Shown piece after piece: positions 1 through 22,200 of a stretch of DNA of 64,000 nucleotides. Positions within the stretch are counted from its first letter, which is position 1, and every line of letters begins with the position of its first letter. The position numbers and the translations under genes were made by a program. This DNA is from Cucumis sativus (taxonomy: Eukaryota; Streptophyta; Magnoliopsida; Cucurbitales; Cucurbitaceae): assembly GCF_000004075.3 (NCBI RefSeq), contig NC_026655.2:1364001-1428000 (forward strand), read 5' to 3'. The notes under the pieces were generated by a model. It did no database searches. It was given only the letters and a program-made list of their open reading frames with translations, and was not told the DNA's origin.

Positions 1-39
1 TATTAGATTGTTTAGCCGATTTACTTGCTTGTTTTCCAG

Positions 40-1007
40 CGAATCTTTGGGGTAGCAACTCTCGAGAAAACTGCTCATGATGACATAAGGAAATTGGCCT
101 CAGCAGTGTATCTTCAAGTAAGCACTATAAGTCAGGCTCTCATATTTGTTACTCGCTCTCGAAGTTGGTCTTTCGTGGAACGTCCTGGGTTATTACTGGT
201 TGCAGCTTTTCTGGTTGCACAGCTGGTGAGTGGGCTTTCATTAAACTTCAGTATAGATTTTTGTATAGGTATGATTAGAACTGAGCTGGTATTTCTCCCT
301 CTTGAACAGATTGCTACTTTAATTGCGGTTTATGCAAACTGGGGCTTTGCTGCCATTGAAGGAATTGGATGGGGTTGGGCCGGTGTTATCTGGCTTTACA
401 ACATTATCTTTTACATCCCACTTGATCTCATTAAGTTCTTTATACGATATGCTTTGAGTGGGAGGGCTTGGGATCTTGTTATTGAACAGAGGGTATCTCT
501 CTCTTCCTGCTGAGTTACTTAATATGATTTTGCCATTTGTTGTATCACTGATCGAGCCATTTCTTGGCATGTAGATTGCCTTCACGAGACAAAAGGACTT
601 TGGGAAGGAACAACGGGAGCTACAATGGGCTCATGCGCAAAGAACATTACACGGATTGCAAGCACCCGATGCCAAAATGTTCCACGACCGAACTCATTTC
701 ACCGAGCTCAATCAGATGGCTGAAGAAGCCAAAAGGAGAGCTGAAATTGCAAGGTATGCACCGAACCTGAAGAACCATCTGTTTCACATATGCATCTTTT
801 TTCCGTTGCATGACACAACATCAAGATGGTTATTTCCTAATCCTCTTAGGATGGTAGTGTTTCAATATGCTTCCTTTCTTAGTTTTGTTCTTGGGCTATA
901 TTTGCTTCAGGTTGAGGGAACTACACACCTTGAAAGGCCATGTTGAATCAGTGGTGAGGCTGAAAGGACTTGACATTGACACAATTCAGCAAGCTTACAC
1001 GGTATGA
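40..1007 (+). CDS. AHA11-like: Plasma-membrane H+-ATPase (P3A type), C-terminal part only
   Basis: This is the last 214 codons of a proton pump that exports H+ across the plasma membrane and energises secondary transport; the 5' part lies outside the window. Four exons join in frame: 40-225, 310-492, 575-753 and 911-1007, all GT-AG. The protein begins [15 protein letters not shown], runs through the last membrane helices ([15 protein letters not shown], then [10 protein letters not shown] and [12 protein letters not shown]) and continues into the cytosolic autoinhibitory R-domain ([24 protein letters not shown]). It ends QQAYTV. The penultimate Thr is the residue that, when phosphorylated, recruits 14-3-3 and activates these pumps. 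[10 protein letters not shown] and VIEQR favour the AHA4/AHA11 branch over AHA1/2. The downstream NPF2 gene is convergent. Family identity is certain; subgroup is inferred. Confidence 0.95.
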
Positions 1008-3164: not shown

Positions 3165-5650
3165 TCAAACACTATTTTTCTCTGGTTGTTTTGATATCAA
3201 GTGAATTTCAGAGGCATTTTGAGGTGCCCCTTTGTACTTATACCACTTTGAACAAATTAGAAAGTAGCACAAATTGACTAATCCAATACCAGTAAGGAAG
3301 TAATAAAAGTAATCCAATCTCCCCTTGTTGAGATCCTCAGGTAACCAATCTCCTGACTTAGATCCTTCACTCATTCTATGAACTACTATTATCAACAGTC
3401 CATTCAAATAGCTCCCACCTGCAATGGCACAAAAGAACATTGACCCTCCAATGCTCCTCATATTCTCTGGGAATTGCTTGTAATAAAATTCCAACTGACT
3501 CACAGCTCCAAACCCATCAGCCAATCCATATAATGTCAGCTGAGGAATCAACCATGAGGCCGACATCGCTGAAATAGCCCCTTTTCGTGGCTCAATTCCG
3601 AGAGATGGCTTTGTAAGAGCAATGATTCTTCTTCTATCTTCAACTAATCCAGACAAAAGCACTGCCATTGTGGTAAGAAATATCCCAATCCCTAGCCTTT
3701 GTAGAATGGTGATTCCACCTTCTTTTTTCGTAAATTTTAGAAGGAAAGGGACTACGATTCGATCGTAAATGGGAAGCCAAATGCTGAGGCTTAGCATTGC
3801 AAAGATTGTGTAGGATGCAGCTGGGATTGTGAAGTTTCCTATCCGCCGGTTTGATTGAAGGGCTTGAAATATTGCATAAGTATTCTGTTGGGCTTGAGTA
3901 GCAAAGAACAAAACTCCTGCCAACCAAACTGGTAGCACTCTCACTAAACACTTCACTTCTTCCACTTGTTGCATACTGCAAAGTTTCCATGGATCTGCTG
4001 CCGATCCATCTTCCTTTATTTGGTCTTCTGCTGTTATGATTGCTGCTTTGTCCAGAAATCTGTTCACCAACATTGATTTGTGGCTCAAATTAGTTCCTGT
4101 TTGTGAGCATAGTAAGGTATAGGGTCGTTTGGAATGACTACTTTCTTATGTAGTCATTTCAAACAGATTCTAAGTCGCGAATAATATGAGGTTTTTGTAT
4201 GAATGATCCATTTCAGGAGGCATTAAAACGGAAGGACCCCAATCCTAAAAAACAAATGAAAACTAACCTTCTAAAGGTATCATAGAGCACTACTTTGTTA
4301 GGGATGTCCCTCCTGTCAAGCAATATTTGAAGCCTTAACATGATACTCACTTCAATCGAGATTTTTTTAATCAATAGTTGGCCAACCGGTGATTAAAAAT
4401 GAAAATTGTGTTAGAAACCGGACTATTTTGCAATGAGTGAGACGTGGGACAGTAATGCTTTTCAGGCGATGAAGTGCTCTATGACGCAAGTAGAATGTTA
4501 GTTTTCTAGGATTAGGTCATTCTATGTTAACGCCACTGGGATTTAGTAATTCGTACAAAAATCTTGGAAAATATCATAACACTATGGAGCGAGAGAAAAA
4601 AGGGGTTGGGCGGTTTTATACCTGAACTGATCTGAATAGGAAAGTTTGGAGTTAATGGAGCCTGGAGGTGTGTATTCAAAGAGAGAAAGCCATGGTTGAT
4701 CTGGTTGCTTGAGTTTTCTTTTCTTAATAGCAACCACAAGAACTTGTGCAACACTGGTCATTGGACTGCCAGTAGCTTTCACTTTCACATAGATTTTAGA
4801 ACCCACAAAGAAGAGTATACAAGCAATCAACATAAGGATTGCTGGAATTCCCAATCCCAGAGCCCAGCTGACATTTGTTTGCACATACACAATGACTGTA
4901 ATTGATACCATCATTGCAAAAGTGTAAGTGAAAACATACCAATTGAAGAAACTATTAATTCCTTTCTTCCCAGCTTCTGTATTTGGATTAAACTGATCAG
5001 CTCCAAATGCCAAATTACATGGTCTAATGCCACCAGCTCCAATTATCATAAGGCCAAATCCAAACAGTAGGAAAGTCATCTGCCCTGCTGTTGGCCCTTT
5101 ACACAAATCTGCTATACAGTGTGGTGGATGCAAGGTCTTGACTGCTGCTGTGAGATGAATTACAAGCAACCCCTTGAATGGAAAAAACAAACATTAATCA
5201 TTCAAATGATGGGAAATGAGAAAAGTTCAAATTTTTAAACAATATAAGTGAGAACAACTACCAAGAAAGAGGCTATGATAGCAAATCCCAAGGTTTTATA
5301 GCGACCAAAATAAGTATCACAAAGAAAAGCTCCAACTAAAGTGACTAAATTAGTGCTGCCATTGAAGATATTAAGTATAGTCGCTGCTGTTATACTCTTC
5401 ATATTGAAAACTGAAGTCAGATAAATCAAGAGATTTGCTAATGTTCCAATAGCTCCCAACTTCTCAAAAGTCTCATTACCTGAATGAAAAAACAGCATAA
5501 ACAACAACAACAACAACAACAAAAATACATGAAACAGAACAGAAATGAAACATTACCTATGACAAAAGGCATGGCTTTCCAGCCTCTGTAATGTATTTGA
5601 GTCTCTCCATCATCATTTTTTGGAGGTGTTTCTTCATTGTTCTTCTCCAT
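3165..5650 (-). CDS. NPF2-like: NRT1/PTR family transporter, NPF2 (GTR-like) clade, copy A
   Basis: Intact 585-residue proton-coupled transporter of the major facilitator superfamily. Exons on the minus strand: 5557-5650, 5262-5479, 4622-5172 and 3165-4059; phases 1, 0 and 2 close correctly. Start MEKNNEE; the first helix carries ETFEK, which fits the ExxE[R/K] proton-coupling motif. Other family hallmarks are [28 protein letters not shown], the QFRFLDKAA linker, [24 protein letters not shown] and [11 protein letters not shown]. The sequence is nearest NPF2.9-2.13, the clade that includes the Arabidopsis glucosinolate transporters GTR1/GTR2 (NPF2.10/2.11). Copy B (8645-10852) lies 3 kb upstream on the same strand with identical intron positions, so the pair is a tandem duplication. 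The last intron (562 nt) contains a MITE-like inverted repeat. Substrate is unknown: nitrate, a hormone or a specialised glucoside are all possible. Confidence 0.93.
4133..4520. mobile_element. MITE-like inverted-repeat insertion in last intron of NPF2 copy A
   Basis: Two arms read as imperfect reverse complements: 4241-4292 (core CATAGAGCACTAC) and 4471-4513 (core GAAGTGCTCTATG), both with the shared AAAACTAAC.TTCTA stretch. A separate perfect 9-bp hairpin, AATGACTAC/GTAGTCATT, lies at 4133-4158 and may mark one end. No coding capacity. The same intron in copy B is only 78 nt against 562 nt here, which fits an insertion of about 0.5 kb. The element ends and target-site duplication are not resolved. 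Confidence 0.6.
5498..5521. repeat. (CAA)n microsatellite in intron 1 of NPF2 copy A
   Basis: About eight CAA/ACA units (TTG on the coding strand) lie inside the 77-nt first intron (5480-5556), occupying about a third of it. Confidence 0.85.
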
Positions 5651-8644
5651 GTTTTTTAATCTCTTTCTCTCTGTATGTGTTTAACAAGTGCCTCAGTTTG
5701 GTGTATTTATCCCATTTTTGTGGATGGAAGCTTAAGTAAGAAAATTGTCCATTAGAGTACAAAATTGGGGTCTTTTTTTCAGTTTTACTGCAAATGTGAT
5801 GTTGTCGTTTAGGTAATGGAATTTCAATTTGCTTTTTCTAAAACAAGAGCATGCGGCTGGCTTAGCTTGGACCACGCCACTGGCTACCACCGTCCTCACA
5901 ACCAGTCCGATGATTTGCACAAAAATTTGGTCACGACACTCTAAATATATCTTTCACATGTTATGGCGGTACACAATTTTGTATGCTTGCTGATATCAAT
6001 TAAAGATAAACGAACAAAAAAATTCCTATACAATAAAGAGTCAAAGACAAAGATTGAACAGTATTATTAGCTACGCTAATGAACATAGATAGTTAACCAT
6101 CTCTACTTAGAGAAGCAAGTAGAGTTAAAGAGTTTATACAACACACTCCCTTAAACGATCAAAATTGTAAATATTGGTTGTTGAAAGGGTCATGCTTCTA
6201 CTCATGCATTTCAACAAACCAACCTAATTCAAACCACTCTATTCACTTTTACACTTGGTTTTTTTTTAAAGAAACTTTTTGTTTTGATTTTATCTAACCA
6301 AAGCTCTTGTTCTTTCGTTGGAGGTTAGAAATTTGTATTCGATTCACGTTAGTAAAAGATTTTGTTATTGGTTTTTCATCCGATTACACTATGTAAGTGC
6401 AACATTTTGGTAAGTAATTAATATTGTTTAATGTATAGTAGGAAAACACTGCTTTGGATAGCATTAGTTGTTTGGACATTTAAGATACACTAATTTAATT
6501 GGACTAATAAATGTATGGTATAGAGGTAGTGAAAAGTTAAATACCTAATCAAGATAGATGTAAATGTTGTAAAGAAATCGGTCGATAAATTATATATCGT
6601 TAATTTGATATTTTTATATTTTTATAAGTTTACATAATACAAAATTAAAAGGTTAATGTTATATTAGACATAAACATAAAATTGAAAGTTGAAACTAAAA
6701 TTAAAATTGTAATTTACATTATTGAGTTTTGGATAACGAGTTAATTTCATGGCAGATTTTCAACATGGTACAAAAGTAAATTTATATTTTCTTATAAAGT
6801 ATTTCAAGTCATAGATTTACTAGAAACAAAGTTGAAAATTTTAAAGACAAAAAAGTATCGATACATATTTTGTTACGCACACCACTTATTTGTTAAAGTA
6901 GAAAAACAAATTAAATTTAGAAACCAAACTTATATTATATTTTAAGTACTATAAAAAAAAAATATATAAAGTTGAGGTACATATTATATGCATTATATAT
7001 ATGAAAAGTTGAACAAAACATATTACAAGAAGTGTCAAATTCATCTATTTACATATTTCTAAGAACATGATCAATAATTGATGTATATACTGTGAAAGAA
7101 TGCATCATTTAAGGGTTGAAAAAGTAAAATGACGAAAACGACCTCTCACCCAATTAGGCCCCACATACCAACAAGTCGATCCCATCATATTTTTTGATCG
7201 TGACCATGGGGTATTACAATAGAAAACTTTTACACGATTGTCGAATATGAAATTTTAAAAAATACGACAATGTCTTCAAATTTTAATTGAGTTATTTTTC
7301 TTTGAAAGATAGAAAGTAAAGATATTATCTTATTGAATTTTTACTTATTTACCTATGAAAATCGACATTTAGTAATTTGTTTTTTTACGTTAATTGAGAA
7401 AAAGTCTAGAGATGTTATTAATAGAAATTACTAATGATATTATACTTTGAATTGAAGTGTGTTATATTTAAGTAATTGATTAATTACATATTAGTTGAGA
7501 TTTAGAGACAGGTTGGAGTTTCTATAAATGATTGATTTCTTAATTTTGACATATTTTCCTCTTTTTGCTTTCTCTTCACCTAATCTAATTTCCAAATTTG
7601 TTTCACTTTTAATCCATCTTTTGCTATAAATGTTACTACTTTTTGCATATTCTTTCATTTGCACTCTATATTTATTCAAAGCAAAATGTGATGAGTAGTC
7701 AATATGGTATATTTTATTTCATACAAAACTTTACTATATTAATGCACCACGAAAATGTTTACCTACATCAGCAATTCACTGTTTATTATAAAAGCAGTAT
7801 TTAAGGATATGAGGTTACGTGTCAAATGTTAAATGGAAGAAATATATACTATGAGGTATTTAGAACTTTTCCATCTCAATTCTCATTGCATTACTAATCA
7901 CACTCTTACATTTTAGGTTTTTCTTATCTATGCTTGAAATTAACGTTTGAATTGTAATACTAAAAATATGACACTACAACAGCTTAGACTTTAAATATTA
8001 GTTTAAAGTCTTGTAAAGAGTGGTAGAGGGTCTTTAGGTGATAGTTTTTAGGAATGGTGAAAGTTTTGACGGATTTTGAACATTTTTATAATGCATGAAT
8101 GACGATTGAACATCGTCACCAAAAATTCTATTTAATGTTTGTTTTAAGGTGTTGTTGAAATCTAGAAACGATAATTGATTGTAATGTTTTAGTATTAGGT
8201 TGATTAAATGGTCTTCCTTATTGGTGAAGAATAGGAAAAATACAACTATAATTATGAACATTTAAGATGATCAATGAAGTTGTTGTAATGATAGAATATA
8301 TACTATTTGTATTGACATAAAGCATTTTGATTTAGAGGAATAGATATTACTTTTGTCCCTCTAGGTGGTAGGTTTAATCTCGTGACCCATTCCACTTTGT
8401 TGCACATGTCAAATAATGCCCATGTTGACTCTAACTAGAAGAATGAGGTTATCGATTGGGAGGAATGAATATATCCATGCAAAAAACATGTTTGAATGGT
8501 TTAAGGGCATATAGATTGATTCATGTAGATCAATGGTAAGAAGTTGAAATGTTAGGGGCAAAGCCCCATTTGACATTACAGTACACATTCATTCATAAAT
8601 ATAAAGAAGACAAAGGAAGCTGGAAACAATGACAGATTACACAA
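5651..8644. other. Intergenic, promoter side of NPF2 copy A
   Basis: Holds the copy A promoter (GATAAATAC on the minus strand near 5703-5711 is a possible TATA element) and the 3' flank of copy B. The rest is strongly AT-rich, with no supported gene; the short open frames here have low-complexity Lys/Asn/Phe-rich translations. Confidence 0.5.
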
Positions 8645-10852
8645 TCAATAAACGACAGTTTTTTCAAATTCCGTCTTCCCAAAATCCATCTCATCAACGC
8701 CATGGCTTCCACTCCCTTTGTACTTATACCATTTTGAACACAACAAAAAATACCCCAAATTCACAGCTTCCAATCCCGATACCAAGAAATAGAAGTAATC
8801 CAATCGACCCTTGTTCAAATCTTCCGGCAGCCACTTTCCGGCGGTGAGACGGTGCACCACCGTCACCATAAACCCACTTAAATAATTCGACAGTGCAAGA
8901 CCCACAAAAGATAACGACCCCCCAATGCTTCTCATGTTTTCAGGGAACTCCTTGTAGTAAAATTCGACTTGCGCAATGACGGTGAACGCCTCTGACAACC
9001 CGATCAGCGTCAATTGAGGGACCAACCAGAGTGCTGACATGGAAGAAATTGAACCCCTTCTCCCTGTTTCTTCGCACAATGGCTGTGTGAGAGCTAAATT
9101 TCTTCTCTTTTGTTCTACTAATGCTGAGATGAACATTGTTATAATGGCGATTCCCATTCCGAACCCCATTTTTTGTAGGAGCGTAATGCCGCCTTCTCTG
9201 GCTGTGATTCGGCGGAGAGAAGGGACTAAGATACGATCGTAGAAAGGGATCCAGATGGTGAGGCCAATCATGGTGAATATTGTGTAAGAAGCGGCTGGGA
9301 TTTTGAAATAATGGGTGTTTCCAAAGAATAAACGCCTATCGGATTGGAGGGCTTGAAATACAGCGTATGTTTGTTGCTGTGTGGTAGCGACATGGTAGAT
9401 TATGGCTGCACCCCATATTGGTATTACTCTCACTAAGCATTTTACTTCTTCTACTTGTTGTGTGCTGCAGAGTGTCCACGGATCAGCTGCTGATCCATCT
9501 GATTTGAATTTGTCTTCTGAGGTTATGATTGCTGCCTTGTCGAAGAAGCTGCATGCAATAAAGGGGTTTTTGTTTTAGCTTTTAAGGTTTGTTTAAAACT
9601 TAAAAGCTTTGAAAGTGGAAGTCTACCTGAATTGATTAGTGTAAGGAAGCTTGGAATTGATGGAGTTTGATGGAATGTGGTTAAAAAGAGATGGCCATTG
9701 CTGGTCTGGCAATGGCAGTTGTCTTTTCTTGAGAGCAGCCATTAGAACTCGCATCACACTAGTGAAGGGACTCCCATCAGGTTCTAATTTGACGTAAATC
9801 CAGGAACCCATGAAGAAAAGTGCACAGGATAGGAACATGAGGAATGCAGGAATGGCTAATCCCCAAGCCCAGCTTACTTCAGTTTGGACATATACAATGA
9901 TGGTTAAAGATATCATCATGGCAAATGTGAAGGTGAAGTAGTACCAGTTGAAGAAGCTGTTTATTCCTAACTTCCCGGAGGCTGTGTTTGGATTGAATTG
10001 GTCTGCTCCAAAAGCTAAGTTGCATGGTCTGATTCCACCAGCTCCAATTACAAGCAATCCTAATCCAAATAACAGAAATGCTATCTGCCATGACGTTGGC
10101 TCTAGGCAAGCCCCACCTGCACTGCCCTTTCCACAATCTGGTGGGTGCAATTTCTCAATTGTTGCTGTCAGTGTTAGCACAACCATCCCCTGCGAGTGAT
10201 CAGTGACATGAAAACCAAATTAACAAATTTGTATATATATGTGTGCGCGCGTGTTTAAATGTCATAAGGAAGCGCAGGAATAACTTTTCAAAAGTTTAAG
10301 AACATTTAAAATATAATTTAAAGGGACCTTAATTTAACTTATACAATATGCATGTGTTTGCATGCGATGTCAGATTAAGCTGATATATTTCACACATGGT
10401 GTGTTTTATAAGATCAGAGCCTCAAACAATAGAAGCAGCCGTACCATTAATGAAGCAATGGAGGCATATCCTAAGGTTTTGTAACGTCCAAAATAAGTGT
10501 CACAAAGAAATGCTCCAAATAAAGTGGAAAAGTTGGTGCTTCCATGGAAAATGTTCATTAGAGTTGTGGCAGTGATATTTTTCATGTGAAATACGTCTGT
10601 CAGATACACCAAAAGGTTTGAAGAAGTGCCTGTAGTCCCTAGCTTCTCAAAAGTTTCATTCCCTAAATCAACAAACCCACATATTAATTAACATTACAGT
10701 TATCAAAACAAAACAAAAATGGAAGTTTGATTTCAGTTTGACCCTCATGTTCACGTATCTTACGAACCTACTACAAATGGCATGGCCTTGACTCCTCTAT
10801 AATTGACGTTAGGCTCATCAAGATTGTTAACATCTTCATTATTTCTTTCCAT
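8645..10852 (-). CDS. NPF2-like: NRT1/PTR family transporter, NPF2 (GTR-like) clade, copy B
   Basis: Intact 589-residue paralogue of copy A. Exons: 10768-10852, 10445-10662, 9627-10189 and 8645-9548, with the same phases as copy A and the same 218-nt second exon. Start [25 protein letters not shown] carries the ExxEK motif; then [59 protein letters not shown] and [12 protein letters not shown]. The residue completed across intron 3 is Ser (AG|C) where copy A has Arg (AG|A), so the linker reads QFSFFDKAA. The loop after QALQSDRR has four extra residues (LFFGNTHYF) compared with copy A. Tandem, head-to-tail with copy A. Membrane transporter of uncertain substrate; class assignment is secure. 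Confidence 0.93.
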
Positions 10853-15600: not shown

Positions 15601-15746
15601 GTTCTTCCACCACTAAAGTCTCCCTTCTTTTAATTTTTCTCGATTATTTTTGAAATGGGGTTCTTTGCCTGAGCTCCGGTGACTGGCTGCTGCAAGCGAG
15701 AGATTAATCTTTAGCTGTAGATTCGTTTTTTTGAAGTTCATTTGAA

Positions 15747-18700
15747 ATGGGTCTTTTCATTTGGGTCTCATCCTTCATTTTAGTAGCTACCCTTTTAAGC
15801 AAATGCTCTTTTTCTCTCACTGAAGATGGTAAACCCTACCTCTATTATGCCCTTTCTGCTGAAGATTTCTTTAGGGTTTATGTTTTGCTTTGTCTTATGT
15901 CTCAGGTTTAACATTGTTGGAAATCAAAAGTACTTTAAATGACACTAAGAACGTGCTCAGTAATTGGAGCCCTGCAGATGAAACTCCCTGTAAATGGACT
16001 GGTATCTCTTGCCATCCTGAGGACTCTCGTGTCAGCTCAGTGTATGTCACTTCATTCTCTTTTCAACTAACTTTTGAGCACCCATTTCTAAATCTTAGGG
16101 TATTTTTGTTTGTGGGTTTTCCAGTAATCTTCCGTTCATGCAACTAGGAGGGATTATATCTCCCAGCATTGGTAAACTTAGTAGATTGCAGAGACTGTAA
16201 GCATCTCTACAAGCATCTTACTTCTCTATTATGATATTATGGAGTGATAGACTTTAGTTAAGTATGTTTTTTCTTATGTGTAAACAGGGCTCTCCACCAG
16301 AACGGCTTACATGGATATATCCCCAATGAACTTGCCAATTGTTCTGAACTTAGAGCCCTGTAAGTAACCATTACCATTTTTACAGCCCTCCCTCCACCAT
16401 TCTTGTGGACGTGCTTCCAAGTGCTTTATTTATATTCATGAGATTGTGCATTTTTTTGATTCAGGTACTTGAGGGCTAATTATCTTCAAGGAGGCATTCC
16501 ATCAAATATTGGAAACCTTTCATACCTTACCATACTGTGAGAGTCTCAGTCTTTTTCCCCTCTTCATTTTTGGATGATTAAGACTTCTTGATATCTTAGC
16601 TAATATCTATTTATGAAGTCAATTAAAAGAGGCATTTATATCGTAAATTTTGCAATTAGAATACCATTATTTTGTTTGTTTTCTGGGTTTTTGTATCTGT
16701 TGTTGTTTTGTTCTTCACCCTTGCTACCTAATTTTGATTACTGGTATTTAATTGTAGTGATTTATCATGCAATTCCTTTAAGGGTAGTATACCATCATCG
16801 ATTGGTCGTCTCACACACTTGCGGAATCTGTAAGTATTCACCACTTTAGCTATATTTACATCGCTGTCCATGCCTGCGATTCATATTACTAAAACTATTG
16901 TCCTTGTTGCGTTTCTTACGTACTTGGTACTCATTTCAGGAATTTATCTACCAACTTCTTCTTTGGAGAAATCCCAGATATTGGAGTTCTAAGCACCTTT
17001 GGTAACAACTCGTAAGTACACTATCAAGATACAGTCCTTTTATACATGTTGAAATCCTTTGTCTATGCCATACCCTCAGAGTAACATGCTTTGAATCATT
17101 ATGTTAGGTTCTTGGGTAGGATTTAGTTCTATGATTTATACAAGCATGGTTTAGAAGTATGCAATTGATTAATGAAGTAGCCATATAGGCATGTTCATGG
17201 TATTCCAAAGAGAAATTGAGAATACTATTCACCTGGTACCAAGGTAAGTGGATGGTTTAATGTTGATGACAAATTCAAGAGAAGAGAAACATGTCGCTTG
17301 CTTGTTTGTCTTGACTTCAAAATTCTTACCATCTTTTCCTCCCCAATTTATCCTGCTTGTTTTGACTTGGTTCTTCAACACATTCTGCATCTTAAGATGA
17401 TCCCTTGATGTGACAGATTCTTTGGTAATCAAGGTCTTTGTGGTCGACAAGTTAACAAGCCGTGCCGAACCTCACTGGGTTTTCCTGTCGTTTTACCACA
17501 TGCTGAAAGTGATGAAGCAGCAGGCAATTTCTCTTTACACTTCAATGAAGTTATTTACCACTTAATCACTTAATCATATTCCAATTAGATGAGTTTGTGA
17601 CAGAATGATTAAATTTGCCAGAGAATCATGTATACTTATTCTATTTTCTATTTTACAGTTCCTCCTAAGCGATCCTCTCATTACACCAAAGGACTGTTGA
17701 TTGGTGCAATATCAACAGCAGGGTTTGTGTTGGTCATACTTGTTGTATTCATGTGGACTCGTTTGGTGTCAAAGAAAGAAAGAACTGCAAAGAGTTACAT
17801 GGAAGTTAAGAAGCAAAAAAATCGTGATACAAGTGAGCAATTCATTTCAGTTTTGGTTCTTTTTCTTTTATCTAATTTGTACATTTTCCCTCAAAATAAT
17901 ACATATCGCAATTGACAACCCTCACAAACCAATGTAGGTGCAAAGCTTATTACATTCCATGGGGATCTACTATATCCAACATGTGAGATCATAGAAAAGC
18001 TGGAGGCCCTGAGTGAAACAAATGTTGTTGGCTCAGGAGGTCTTGGAACCGTGTATCGAATGGTCATGAATGACTCCGGAACTTTTGCTGTGAAGAAAAT
18101 TGATAGGACTCAAGACGGTCCAGATCAAGTAGTTGAAAGAGAACTGGAGATACTGGGTAGCATTAAACACATAAATTTAGTGAAATTGCGTGGCTATTGC
18201 AGGCTTCCTTCTTCAAAGCTTCTTATATATGACTATCTGCCGGCTGGTAGCTTGGATAATTTCTTGCATGGTATCATTTTTCTGTTCCATTATTGAATTC
18301 CAAAATGCAAAATATTGAGAAGTAACATAGATAGGAAGATGTAATATGATGAGTATGGAACTGTAGGACTGGAAGTTTTATTCTTCTTTTCAACTCTTTG
18401 TAGACTTATCTTTTCACTATTCGCAGAACGTGGACCAGAAAAGTTATTGGATTGGAGTGCTCGGTTAAACATAGCCCTAGGCTCTGCTCGAGGACTGGCA
18501 TACTTGCACCATGATTGCTGTCCAAAGATTGTGCATTGCAACATAAAATCCAGCAACATCCTTCTTGACGGGAACTTAGAGCCGCACGTATCTGACTTTG
18601 GTCTTGCAAAGCTTTCGGTTGATGGGGATTCCCATGTCACAACTGTTGTTGCTGGCACATTTGGTTATTTGGCTCCAGGTGCTATTCCCTAATAATGGTT

Positions 18701-19221
18701 CAACTTCAATTCAGAAATTTATAAAACTATAATCTCAAATAAAATCTTCTTTGGACCTACTTTTTCTTGAGCAGAATACTTAGAAAGTGGGATAGGAACT
18801 GAGAAGTCTGATGTTTATAGCTTTGGAGTTCTCTTGCTGGAGCTTGTAACAGGGAAGAGACCAAGTGATCCATTTTTCTCAAAGAGGGGTGTAAATATCG
18901 TTGGTTGGGTAAGCCAATCTCTGCACAGTGCAAGTTGCATCTTTTTTCTATCTCTAAACAACTATGCATTAAATTGTGCATGATCATGTCTAACAGTTGA
19001 ACACACTGCGGGGAGAAGACCAATTGGAGAACATAGTCGATAATAGGTGCCAGAATGCAGATGTCGAAACGGTAGAAGCGATTCTCGAAATAGCAGCGAG
19101 GTGCACCAATGGCAATCCAACTGTGCGGCCTACAATGAACCAAGTATTGCAGCAGCTAGAGCAAGAGGTGATGTCGCCGTATCCAAGCGATTACTCTGAG
19201 TCTCACTCGGATTATTCGTGA
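15747..19221 (+). CDS. LRR receptor-like kinase (At5g62710/FEI-like), predicted pseudokinase
   Basis: 600-residue single-pass receptor. Thirteen exons: 15747-15828, 15906-16041, five 72-nt LRR exons (16125-16196, 16288-16359, 16465-16536, 16758-16829, 16940-17011), 17417-17523, 17659-17832, 17938-18270, 18427-18678, 18775-18908 and 18997-19221. Signal peptide at the N-terminus, LRRNT with a [12 protein letters not shown] cap, about five LRRs (residues 73-193), membrane helix near 240-261, kinase from about 316. Glycine loop GSGGLG (318-323), Lys339 in FAVKK, DFG 454-456 and APEYL are present. The catalytic loop, however, reads [10 protein letters not shown]: Arg435 is Cys and the catalytic Asp436 is Asn. 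Intron 8 appears to use a GC donor at 17524. The frame is otherwise intact, so it is probably a signalling scaffold rather than a decayed gene. Overall resemblance is to At5g62710, close to FEI1/FEI2. Confidence 0.92.
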
Positions 19222-22200
19222 ATGTAAACAAATTTGAGGTTTTGTGCAACATGTTAAGAAAGAAACATTTGCATAATGTATTCACTTGTGGAATCGTTTT
19301 TCAACCCACGTTCTTGTTGGGAGGGCTTGAGTACCATGTAAGTTTGACATTCATGACACTTCTCTACGAATTTGGGTTCTTTTTTTTCCTTGTTTGAAGT
19401 AACAAGTTCTTTTCTCGTTCTTCCTAGAAATATATTTGAGATTGATCATGATGACCAAAAAATTAGAAAAAACAAAACTAGTTAATACAAGTCTATTACG
19501 AGTGTGATGTAAGATTTATTTATTTTAAAAAAAAGCAATCTATAGAACTACATCAACACCTTGGGAGTCAACGAATAGGAAAAATGTTACTCCAACGACG
19601 AACATGGTTATAGGACACAATGCTAGGTTTTGTGTGCATAAAGATTTAACCTCAAGGATGAAAAAGGAAACTTTTGCAAGCTTCATTGAACCACTAGTCA
19701 AAAGATTACCATTCGCCAAGCAGTTCGACTTCAGTGTTGGGCTATGTATTTCTAAAGTGTGTGTTTCAATAGAGTATATGTTTTACTAAACTAGCTTGAT
19801 CACAAGAGCAATAGTAACATAAAGATCACATTCTGTAACAAAACCTACACATAATATATGAATGTATTTTCTCACTTGGTTATAAAATAATGCACAAGTA
19901 GTTGATGTTCCCCTTTAAAAGAAGCCTTTATAATTTGAAATATGAAAACATTATCTTATTTGAATGATGCTTAGAATAATGTTGTGCAGTTTCCCCCTCA
20001 TGTAATTCAAAGTGGGATATCTACTTCTAGAATGTGGTACCATTGATTGCATCTTTATTTTCGTTGAGAAAATCCTTCTTTCTCCTATCGGAATAGGGAA
20101 TATTAACCACATTGTGTTACAACAATCTTTGAGTATCGACGGATAAAGTATAGGACAAGAGGGCTCGAGTCTTTCCCAATCTATGCACTTTATGTAATAT
20201 ATATAGAAAAAATTGAAATAATTATAATAGAGTAGCAAGTCTAGTGGTAACAAGTTATTCAATCTCCTTTAGATCAGGTTTAAGCTTCCTTTTTATATTT
20301 TCTCAAGTTACTTTTACTGAATTATAAAGTTTTGGACGATAGATTTTCTAAATTTATGCACTACTTTTAAAATAACGATTATTATCTTGCCTTAAAGTTT
20401 GAAACAAACAAAGAACATATTTTTCATATTTAGAATTCCATAACAATCAAACAGAGAGGTCTCGTAATTTTAATAAAATATATAAGATTGATTTTGAAAT
20501 GAAACTTTAGATTTATACTGTACTGATGGCTTACAAAACAATCACAACAAAACTTTCATGCAAATGAAGTCATTGGGGTTTGATGAGATATTTTGAAATG
20601 TGGGAGGACATGTACTTGGTCTAGACCAACTCTAAAGACTTCCATCCACACATTTCTATCCCTTCCAACTGGGTTACCTCAAATATTAAAAACTACACAA
20701 CACACCTTTTATCTTTGGAATGTAATAAATGTAAACTGCATGTGACAATATAGAAAAAAATCTAACTCTTAGTTAAACAAATAGAGTACAGATTGGAAGT
20801 TACCTTATCAACTAAACTATACTTAAAACCACTGATGGGCCATTGGCCTAGGAGCTAGATGGGTTAAGAAAGCATAAACAAGCTGCATTGCATGGGAATG
20901 GGAAGTGCACCGACCATTTATTTGCTTGGTGTTAATCTCCACATACAAAATCAAAGGTACCAAAATTTGGAGTAGGGTCCATTACCATATGGGGTTTAAA
21001 GGGTTTTTAGCCATTGAATTTGGAGTTCACTGGAAGACATTAAATTGCACGTTGATGAGAACCAACAATGTCCACTCATTTGATTGTTTGCCTTCAGAAA
21101 GATGACTTACTCCATCCGGCAATCACCAGCAAACGAGGATCCTTACAATTTACACTTGAACATTTCAGCCCCCATCTGAAGAACACGACCCAGCCATTTT
21201 GGAAAAGTTGCCATCGATAAGGATTGATGCCCACTCACATTATACAAGACGGCAAGATGATGGGTCATTGCCCTTTTCACGTTTGATGAAATTCCTCAGT
21301 GGGTTTTTGGCTTTTTTCACTACCCCACCTCCAGGATGCGGTGCTGAGTCCTCAAGACACTTTGAAAAAAATGAAAAAAAGGTAGGTCCTTCAATTTAAT
21401 TTTCATATCTAATTTAATCAAACCCCACTCTTCCCTCATTTTCATCTCAATCCCATCCCAGATATTATCCATTTCCATTCCTTCCTTTACTTATCATTTT
21501 TCTATTCCAACTTGTCAACTAATTCACTATTCTTTTGTTCTAATATCTTCTATACCATTCACGTACTTTTCATCTTCATGTGGGTTGTTTTCTTATATTT
21601 TGTTTTCAGCATTATAAATTATAATATATATATTGTCTGGCATAGAAGTTTGTAGTCTCCTGAATTGTTACTTCCCTTTCAGTTGTGATGGCGATCTTGT
21701 CTGGAATGCAACCGAAGTCACACGTTGGCTCAATAAGAAGAGGCTTGTGCAATCATTTTTATTGGTGCGAGACATTTTGGGTAAAACCAAAAGTAAAAGC
21801 ATGGAGGCTTGTTGGCTACTGCCAAAGTTTAAATCACACATTGACTAGATAAGAAAAATATCATAGGTATACAAGTGAATGACAAATATCTTTGTTGGCA
21901 TGAAACCACTTTTAGTGATTCCAAAGACAATGTCATGAACTTATGTTCAAAATGGATGTAACCATATTATTATGATTCGAATGTGGAAGAACGTTAATGT
22001 CTAAAATGAATATAATAGTATCATTTTATTATAAAGATATGTGAGGACCCTTTAAATATAGCTTTTCGATTTCAACAGCATTGATGATGGTCGTATATAT
22101 ATTTATTATCTACGGTAAAAGTTGAATCAACAAACTCCAGAGAGAATCCAATGTGGATGAATATTTCTGCTTGTGCATGAGATGAATGACTATTGGCAAC

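Follow-up and report, generated by a model that had tools for sequence, protein, structure and literature searches.

A cucumber LRR receptor kinase gene with HCN at the HRD position, a predicted pseudokinase in an otherwise intact receptor

A putatively FEI/ARH1-type leucine-rich repeat (LRR) receptor kinase gene of Cucumis sativus carries HCN where active kinases carry HRD in the catalytic loop, and its product is a predicted pseudokinase in an otherwise intact receptor. The gene occupies positions 15747-19221 on the plus strand of the window, the 64,000-nucleotide stretch analyzed here (C1:1364001-1428000 in an assembly of 226.6 Mb in 88 contigs). As the best explanation, to which we give a probability of about one half, we propose that it encodes a non-catalytic co-receptor. 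Receptor pseudokinases are already known in plants and the window gene is a clean further example; more generally, PMC9403797 puts the share of pseudokinases among predicted Arabidopsis kinases at over 17 percent. The HCN copy has an HRD sister and presumably belongs to a group in which the kinase activity of FEI1 is reportedly non-essential. The two copies would thus form a clean natural pair for studying which functions a receptor kinase domain serves once catalysis is gone.

In our model, which was spliced by hand without transcripts, the gene comprises 13 exons and 1803 coding nucleotides for 600 amino acids, with zero internal stops. Eleven of the 12 introns are GT-AG, while intron 8 (17524-17658) is GC-AG in the model; the model of the closest paralogue, L032, has GT at the same place. 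Exons 1-8 with their introns (15747-17523) encode a hydrophobic N-terminal stretch, judged from the translation, and the LRR ectodomain found by Pfam. Exon 9 (17659-17832) encodes the predicted transmembrane and juxtamembrane region, the hydrophobic stretch again being read from the translation alone. The kinase domain is spread over exon 10 (17938-18270; N-lobe with the G-loop, the beta3 Lys and the alpha-C Glu), exon 11 (18427-18678; catalytic loop, DFG and activation segment), exon 12 (18775-18908; the end of the APE Glu codon and the alpha-F region) and exon 13 (18997-19221; the C-terminal part and the tail). LRRNT_2, LRR_8, LRR_1, LRR_4 and both kinase models including Pkinase score above the Pfam cut-off, and LRR_14 below it. 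The product accordingly combines an LRR ectodomain and a kinase domain, both by Pfam, with a transmembrane stretch predicted from sequence only, as in LRR receptor-like kinases. The Arabidopsis proteins FEI1 and FEI2 (LRR-RLK subgroup XIIIa) likewise have a short LRR ectodomain and one kinase domain. Ahead of the start codon lies a short upstream frame at 15655-15672 (ATG, four further codons, TGA).

Read directly, positions 18531-18545 are GTG CAT TGC AAC ATA, i.e., V H C N I. In the spliced model His434 (18534-18536), Cys435 (18537-18539) and Asn436 (18540-18542) occupy the HRD position, so that the original prediction of a change from HRD to HCN at 18534-18542 was confirmed on re-reading, in frame in the 600-residue product. 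A misread frame as the source of HCN is ruled out, since the loop lies within exon 11 and in frame with the kinase on either side. The catalytic loop of the spliced protein, ten residues long, aligns without gaps with the HRD of the BAK1 and BRI1 chains. These two proteins are the best kinase matches among the best 60 of 61 solved structures and show HRD in all three alignments displayed; none of these 60 is named FEI or ARH1. The other motifs are in place: the G-loop GSGGLG from residue 318, the beta3 Lys339, an alpha-C Glu in the stretch VERELE from 352, the loop residues Lys438 and Asn441, DFG from 454, APE from 480 (its Glu codon split by intron 11) and DVYSFG from 494. The VAIK Lys, DFG and APE had been predicted to be kept, which holds for all three, except that the motif around Lys339 reads FAVK and not VAIK. 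With a pseudokinase defined by the loss of at least one of the VAIK Lys, the HRD Asp and the DFG Asp, it is the HRD Asp that is lost here, as Asn436. The reading as a predicted pseudokinase in an otherwise intact receptor is thus upheld by the open model, the Pfam domains and the remaining kinase motifs. Features of a pseudogene are absent from the gene: its 600 codons run without stop or frameshift and its 12 introns all have GT-AG or GC-AG ends.

The substitution could also stem from a mistake in sequencing or assembly, or be an allele found only in the sequenced accession, as the reading comes from a single assembly. In that assembly, contig C57 holds kinase matches that pair up (7852-8187 with 399730-400065, and 20480-20815 with 387102-387437). 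The pairs are identical within themselves and symmetrical, their outer coordinates summing to 407917, so that this contig looks palindromic, perhaps as an effect of assembly. However, an error that places two substitutions in adjacent codons and leaves the frame undamaged seems unlikely, and a 25-base string spanning the HCN site occurs a single time in the assembly. We therefore regard an error or private allele as rather improbable.

The retention of Lys339, the alpha-C Glu, Lys438, Asn441 and DFG would also suit an active kinase of atypical type, able to phosphorylate even though the HRD Asp is missing. A precedent exists in ILK1, an active pseudokinase of which the HRD Asp-to-Asn form is more active in the account given in PMC9403797. 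Two statements of that source combined indicate that the ILKs read HCD and that this form of ILK1 would therefore read HCN, as the window gene does. Yet ILK1 belongs to another family, the Raf-like MAP3Ks, and has GFG for DFG, whereas the window gene encodes an LRR receptor with DFG. The same source also states that an Asp-to-Asn change abolishes activity in most kinases. An active enzyme is the least probable of the explanations considered here, and we think it very unlikely.

Loss of the HRD Asp combined with an unaltered loop Lys, loop Asn and DFG is unusual among the related loci of this genome. We read 111 kinase loops, from 30 loci of a first similarity search (the window gene among them), the locus L034 and 80 further ranked stretches. 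This is a set gathered by similarity to the window gene and not the whole kinome. It is a subset of 157 reported matches, the 46 unread ones including another of the window gene's own exons. The count omits L032 and L033, which are identical with the genes L005 and L028, as well as L001, a repeat of the window gene, and the bacterial locus L035. Among these loops, 108 of them distinct in sequence, 105 retain the Asp and six, counting the window gene, have Asn instead (HCN, HRN, HLN, HQN, HYN and HNN). Only in the window gene are the loop Lys, the loop Asn and DFG all unaltered. L038 and L070, which look BIR-like, lack the loop Lys and Asn. In L115 DFG is replaced by NFS and the loop Lys is missing, and L046 and L106 read DYG, yet with the loop Lys and Asn present. 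The non-RD form that retains the Asp, HCD, is found in 14 of the 111 loops. It may be added that every loss of the HRD Asp in this set is a change to Asn (window gene, L038, L046, L070, L106 and L115), and that L096 (C3:9717191-9717514) is another candidate pseudokinase loop, with HKD and thus the Asp, but NFG for DFG.

By the identity of the loop exon and of the kinase domain, the nearest gene in the same genome is L032 (minus strand, C1:5.032-5.036 Mb, within the stretch C1:5029500-5037000), followed by L034 and L033. With the window gene as template, L032 fits the same 13 exons and gives 601 amino acids with HRD. The two genes on C4, L033 and L034, also read HRD, in contrast to the HCN of the window gene; they were represented by kinase exons chosen exon by exon, and they look FEI-like. 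The window gene is 76 percent identical to L032 over 307 kinase codons and 59 percent identical to L033/L034, and over the same codons it and L032 are each 59-62 percent identical to the latter pair. Presumably, ARH1 (At5g62710) is the nearest Arabidopsis gene of the window gene; the correspondence of L032 to ARH1 and of L033 and L034 to FEI is likewise our assumption. With a dS of about 1.1 separating the window gene from L032, the duplication is old. Since L032 has HRD, the HCN change would by parsimony have arisen on the window-gene branch after this old duplication. The expectation of a lineage-specific change is hence supported within the genome, where HRD is present in L032, L033 and L034. 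The change may be confined to one accession, to the species or to the cucurbits; the orthologue search of genome contigs confirmed one locus from 47 stretches, which is a bacterial contig with 33 percent identity. The proposed route by two transitions at CpG sites fits in that TGC AAC can be derived from CGC GAC, but these ancestral codons are putative. The three relatives read CGT GAT, CGA GAC and CGG GAT, and CGC accounts for 4 of 89 Arg codons at the HRD Arg position in the loops read from this genome. As a further observation on the L032 model, its exon 11 ends, in the inferred splice, with CCA A and is followed by GTGCTC, so that the codon at the APE Glu is AAA (Lys) and the motif APK; by eye, this donor (A before GTGCTC) looks weak.

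The receptor pair likely lies in a small duplicated segment, judging from a comparison of the window's open reading frames of at least 35 amino acids with the region around L032 (C1:4989900-5056800). The end of a proton-ATPase gene (best pieces 88-97 percent identical) and the receptor both match around L032, in inverted order and with matching orientation. Window positions 16-1004 and 3165-10687, which hold the proton-ATPase end and, with weaker matches, NPF genes, recur in inverted order at C1:5.0377-5.0429 Mb. The proton-ATPase end has a further locus of similar score on C5. The NPF genes reach only 34-51 percent in the L032 region, where the NPF locus takes 27th place when the 40 matches to one of the window's NPF genes are ranked. 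A stomatin/HIR-like open reading frame of the window is unmatched around L032 and finds its best other match on C6, and the stretch from 26.4 to 64 kb of the window has zero matches in that region. A duplicated block of three genes is weakened by the low, non-nearest NPF matches and by the unmatched stomatin/HIR-like frame.

The pair formed by the window gene and L032 has been under purifying selection since the duplication. Over all 600 codons pairwise omega is 0.139; taken separately, the ectodomain gives 0.132 and the kinase domain 0.121. A value of omega = 1 is rejected in each case (2dlnL 274.6, 113.2 and 142.1, respectively); between L033 and L034 pairwise omega is 0.047. A long-term pseudogene is excluded by the open frame, the intact splice ends and the low pairwise dN/dS, as the frame has stayed open beyond neutral expectation. 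Under neutral decay, the share of such genes still free of a stop falls to 5 percent after 0.044 substitutions per site. Counting splice sites and indels as well, the latter at an assumed rate, brings this figure down to 0.013. These values correspond to about 2-6 My for an assumed clock of 7e-9 substitutions per site and year (kappa, indel rate and clock being assumptions).

A much younger inactivation is a rival reading of these figures. The window gene could be a redundant copy on its way out, in which the catalytic change came late and the frame has remained open through a short time; at the 5 percent level a neutral gene can stay stop-free for just those 2-6 My, and an HRD paralogue exists. 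The branch models on 307 kinase codons of the window gene, L032, L033 and L034 give mixed results. The single-omega model yields 0.068, whereas the two-ratio model estimates 0.283 on the window-gene branch vs. 0.047 elsewhere (2dlnL 15.2, p = 1e-4) and fails to reject neutrality of that branch (p = 0.18). Neutrality is rejected (p = 0.035) in the three-ratio model in which L032 has its own omega, and the window-gene branch does not differ from L032 (p = 0.80). When L032 alone is given its own omega the estimate is 11.7, a value showing that change is not stably divided between the two copies, the internal branch being saturated. By arithmetic, the window-gene branch has an omega of at most about 0.28 even with every amino-acid change placed on it, if synonymous change is split equally. 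At sites where the other three genes agree, 20 changes are unique to the window gene and 13 to L032, which is not a significant difference (p = 0.30); one of the former lies in the G-loop (GSGGFG to GSGGLG). Against a recent inactivation stand the intact frame, splice dinucleotides and other motifs, and neutrality over most of the branch conflicts with the pairwise dN/dS. We consider it unlikely, though the most serious competitor of a non-catalytic co-receptor. Of the predicted selection for a scaffold role, what these data bear out is a long constraint since the old duplication (omega 0.139); that the constraint persisted after the HCN change does not follow from them.

It is also conceivable that both copies left canonical catalysis after the old duplication by different routes, HCN in the window gene and APK in L032, a scenario that overlaps with the co-receptor explanation. 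It draws on the Lys that exon 11 of L032 gives at the APE Glu, a residue that the window gene, L033 and L034 have kept as Glu. On the other hand, the L032 splice was inferred without transcripts and an APK kinase need not be dead; we see this double departure as improbable. If true, it would mirror in nature what is reported of FEI1, a function that does not depend on kinase activity.

The co-receptor explanation joins the observed open 13-exon model, the substitution, the HRD paralogue and the purifying selection on the pair to a putative loss of activity. The gene would make a FEI/ARH1-type LRR receptor. Its kinase domain would probably be folded and might also bind nucleotide, while phosphate transfer would be inefficient because the catalytic Asp is replaced by Asn. 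The old duplication would have given two copies, of which the sister retained HRD and the window copy altered both residues on its own branch. The HCN receptor would then most likely bind and allosterically support an active kinase, or hold a substrate as a scaffold. The putative pathway is the one reported for FEI1, FEI2 and ARH1 (the last being its presumed match), namely cell-wall and osmotic signalling. A literature search on HRD-altered receptor-like pseudokinases in cucumber returned no paper, and the HCN change is unmentioned in the literature retrieved, which includes FEI1 and receptor-like kinases in cucumber. BIR2-type receptor pseudokinases are LRR receptors with an altered catalytic loop, as is the product of the window gene; PDB 4l68, among the structure matches, is presumably BIR2, a protein that is not known to bind ATP.

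A non-catalytic co-receptor is favored by two reports taken together. The kinase activity of FEI1 is described as not essential in PMC7912651, and EFR D849N, which has the same Asp-to-Asn change at the same position as the window gene, keeps some ability to enhance phosphorylation by BAK1, as stated in PMC11259431. The EFR change was engineered in a member of LRR-RLK subfamily XIIa, whereas that of the window gene is natural and in another subfamily. Moreover, BRI1 D1009N gives no substantial enhancement in the same text (PMC11259431), so the allosteric property is not general. The normal appearance of fei single mutants, as described in PMC5380761, argues against a co-receptor function. In PMC10966064, ARH1, FEI1 and FEI2 are reported to act jointly, both in root hydrotropism and in the wall composition of the root tip. 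Finally, AT5G62710, for which HRD had been predicted, is listed in a table of PMC9224535 among the kinases for AtGPA1 sites; from that listing the Arabidopsis gene appears active, unlike the predicted pseudokinase described here.
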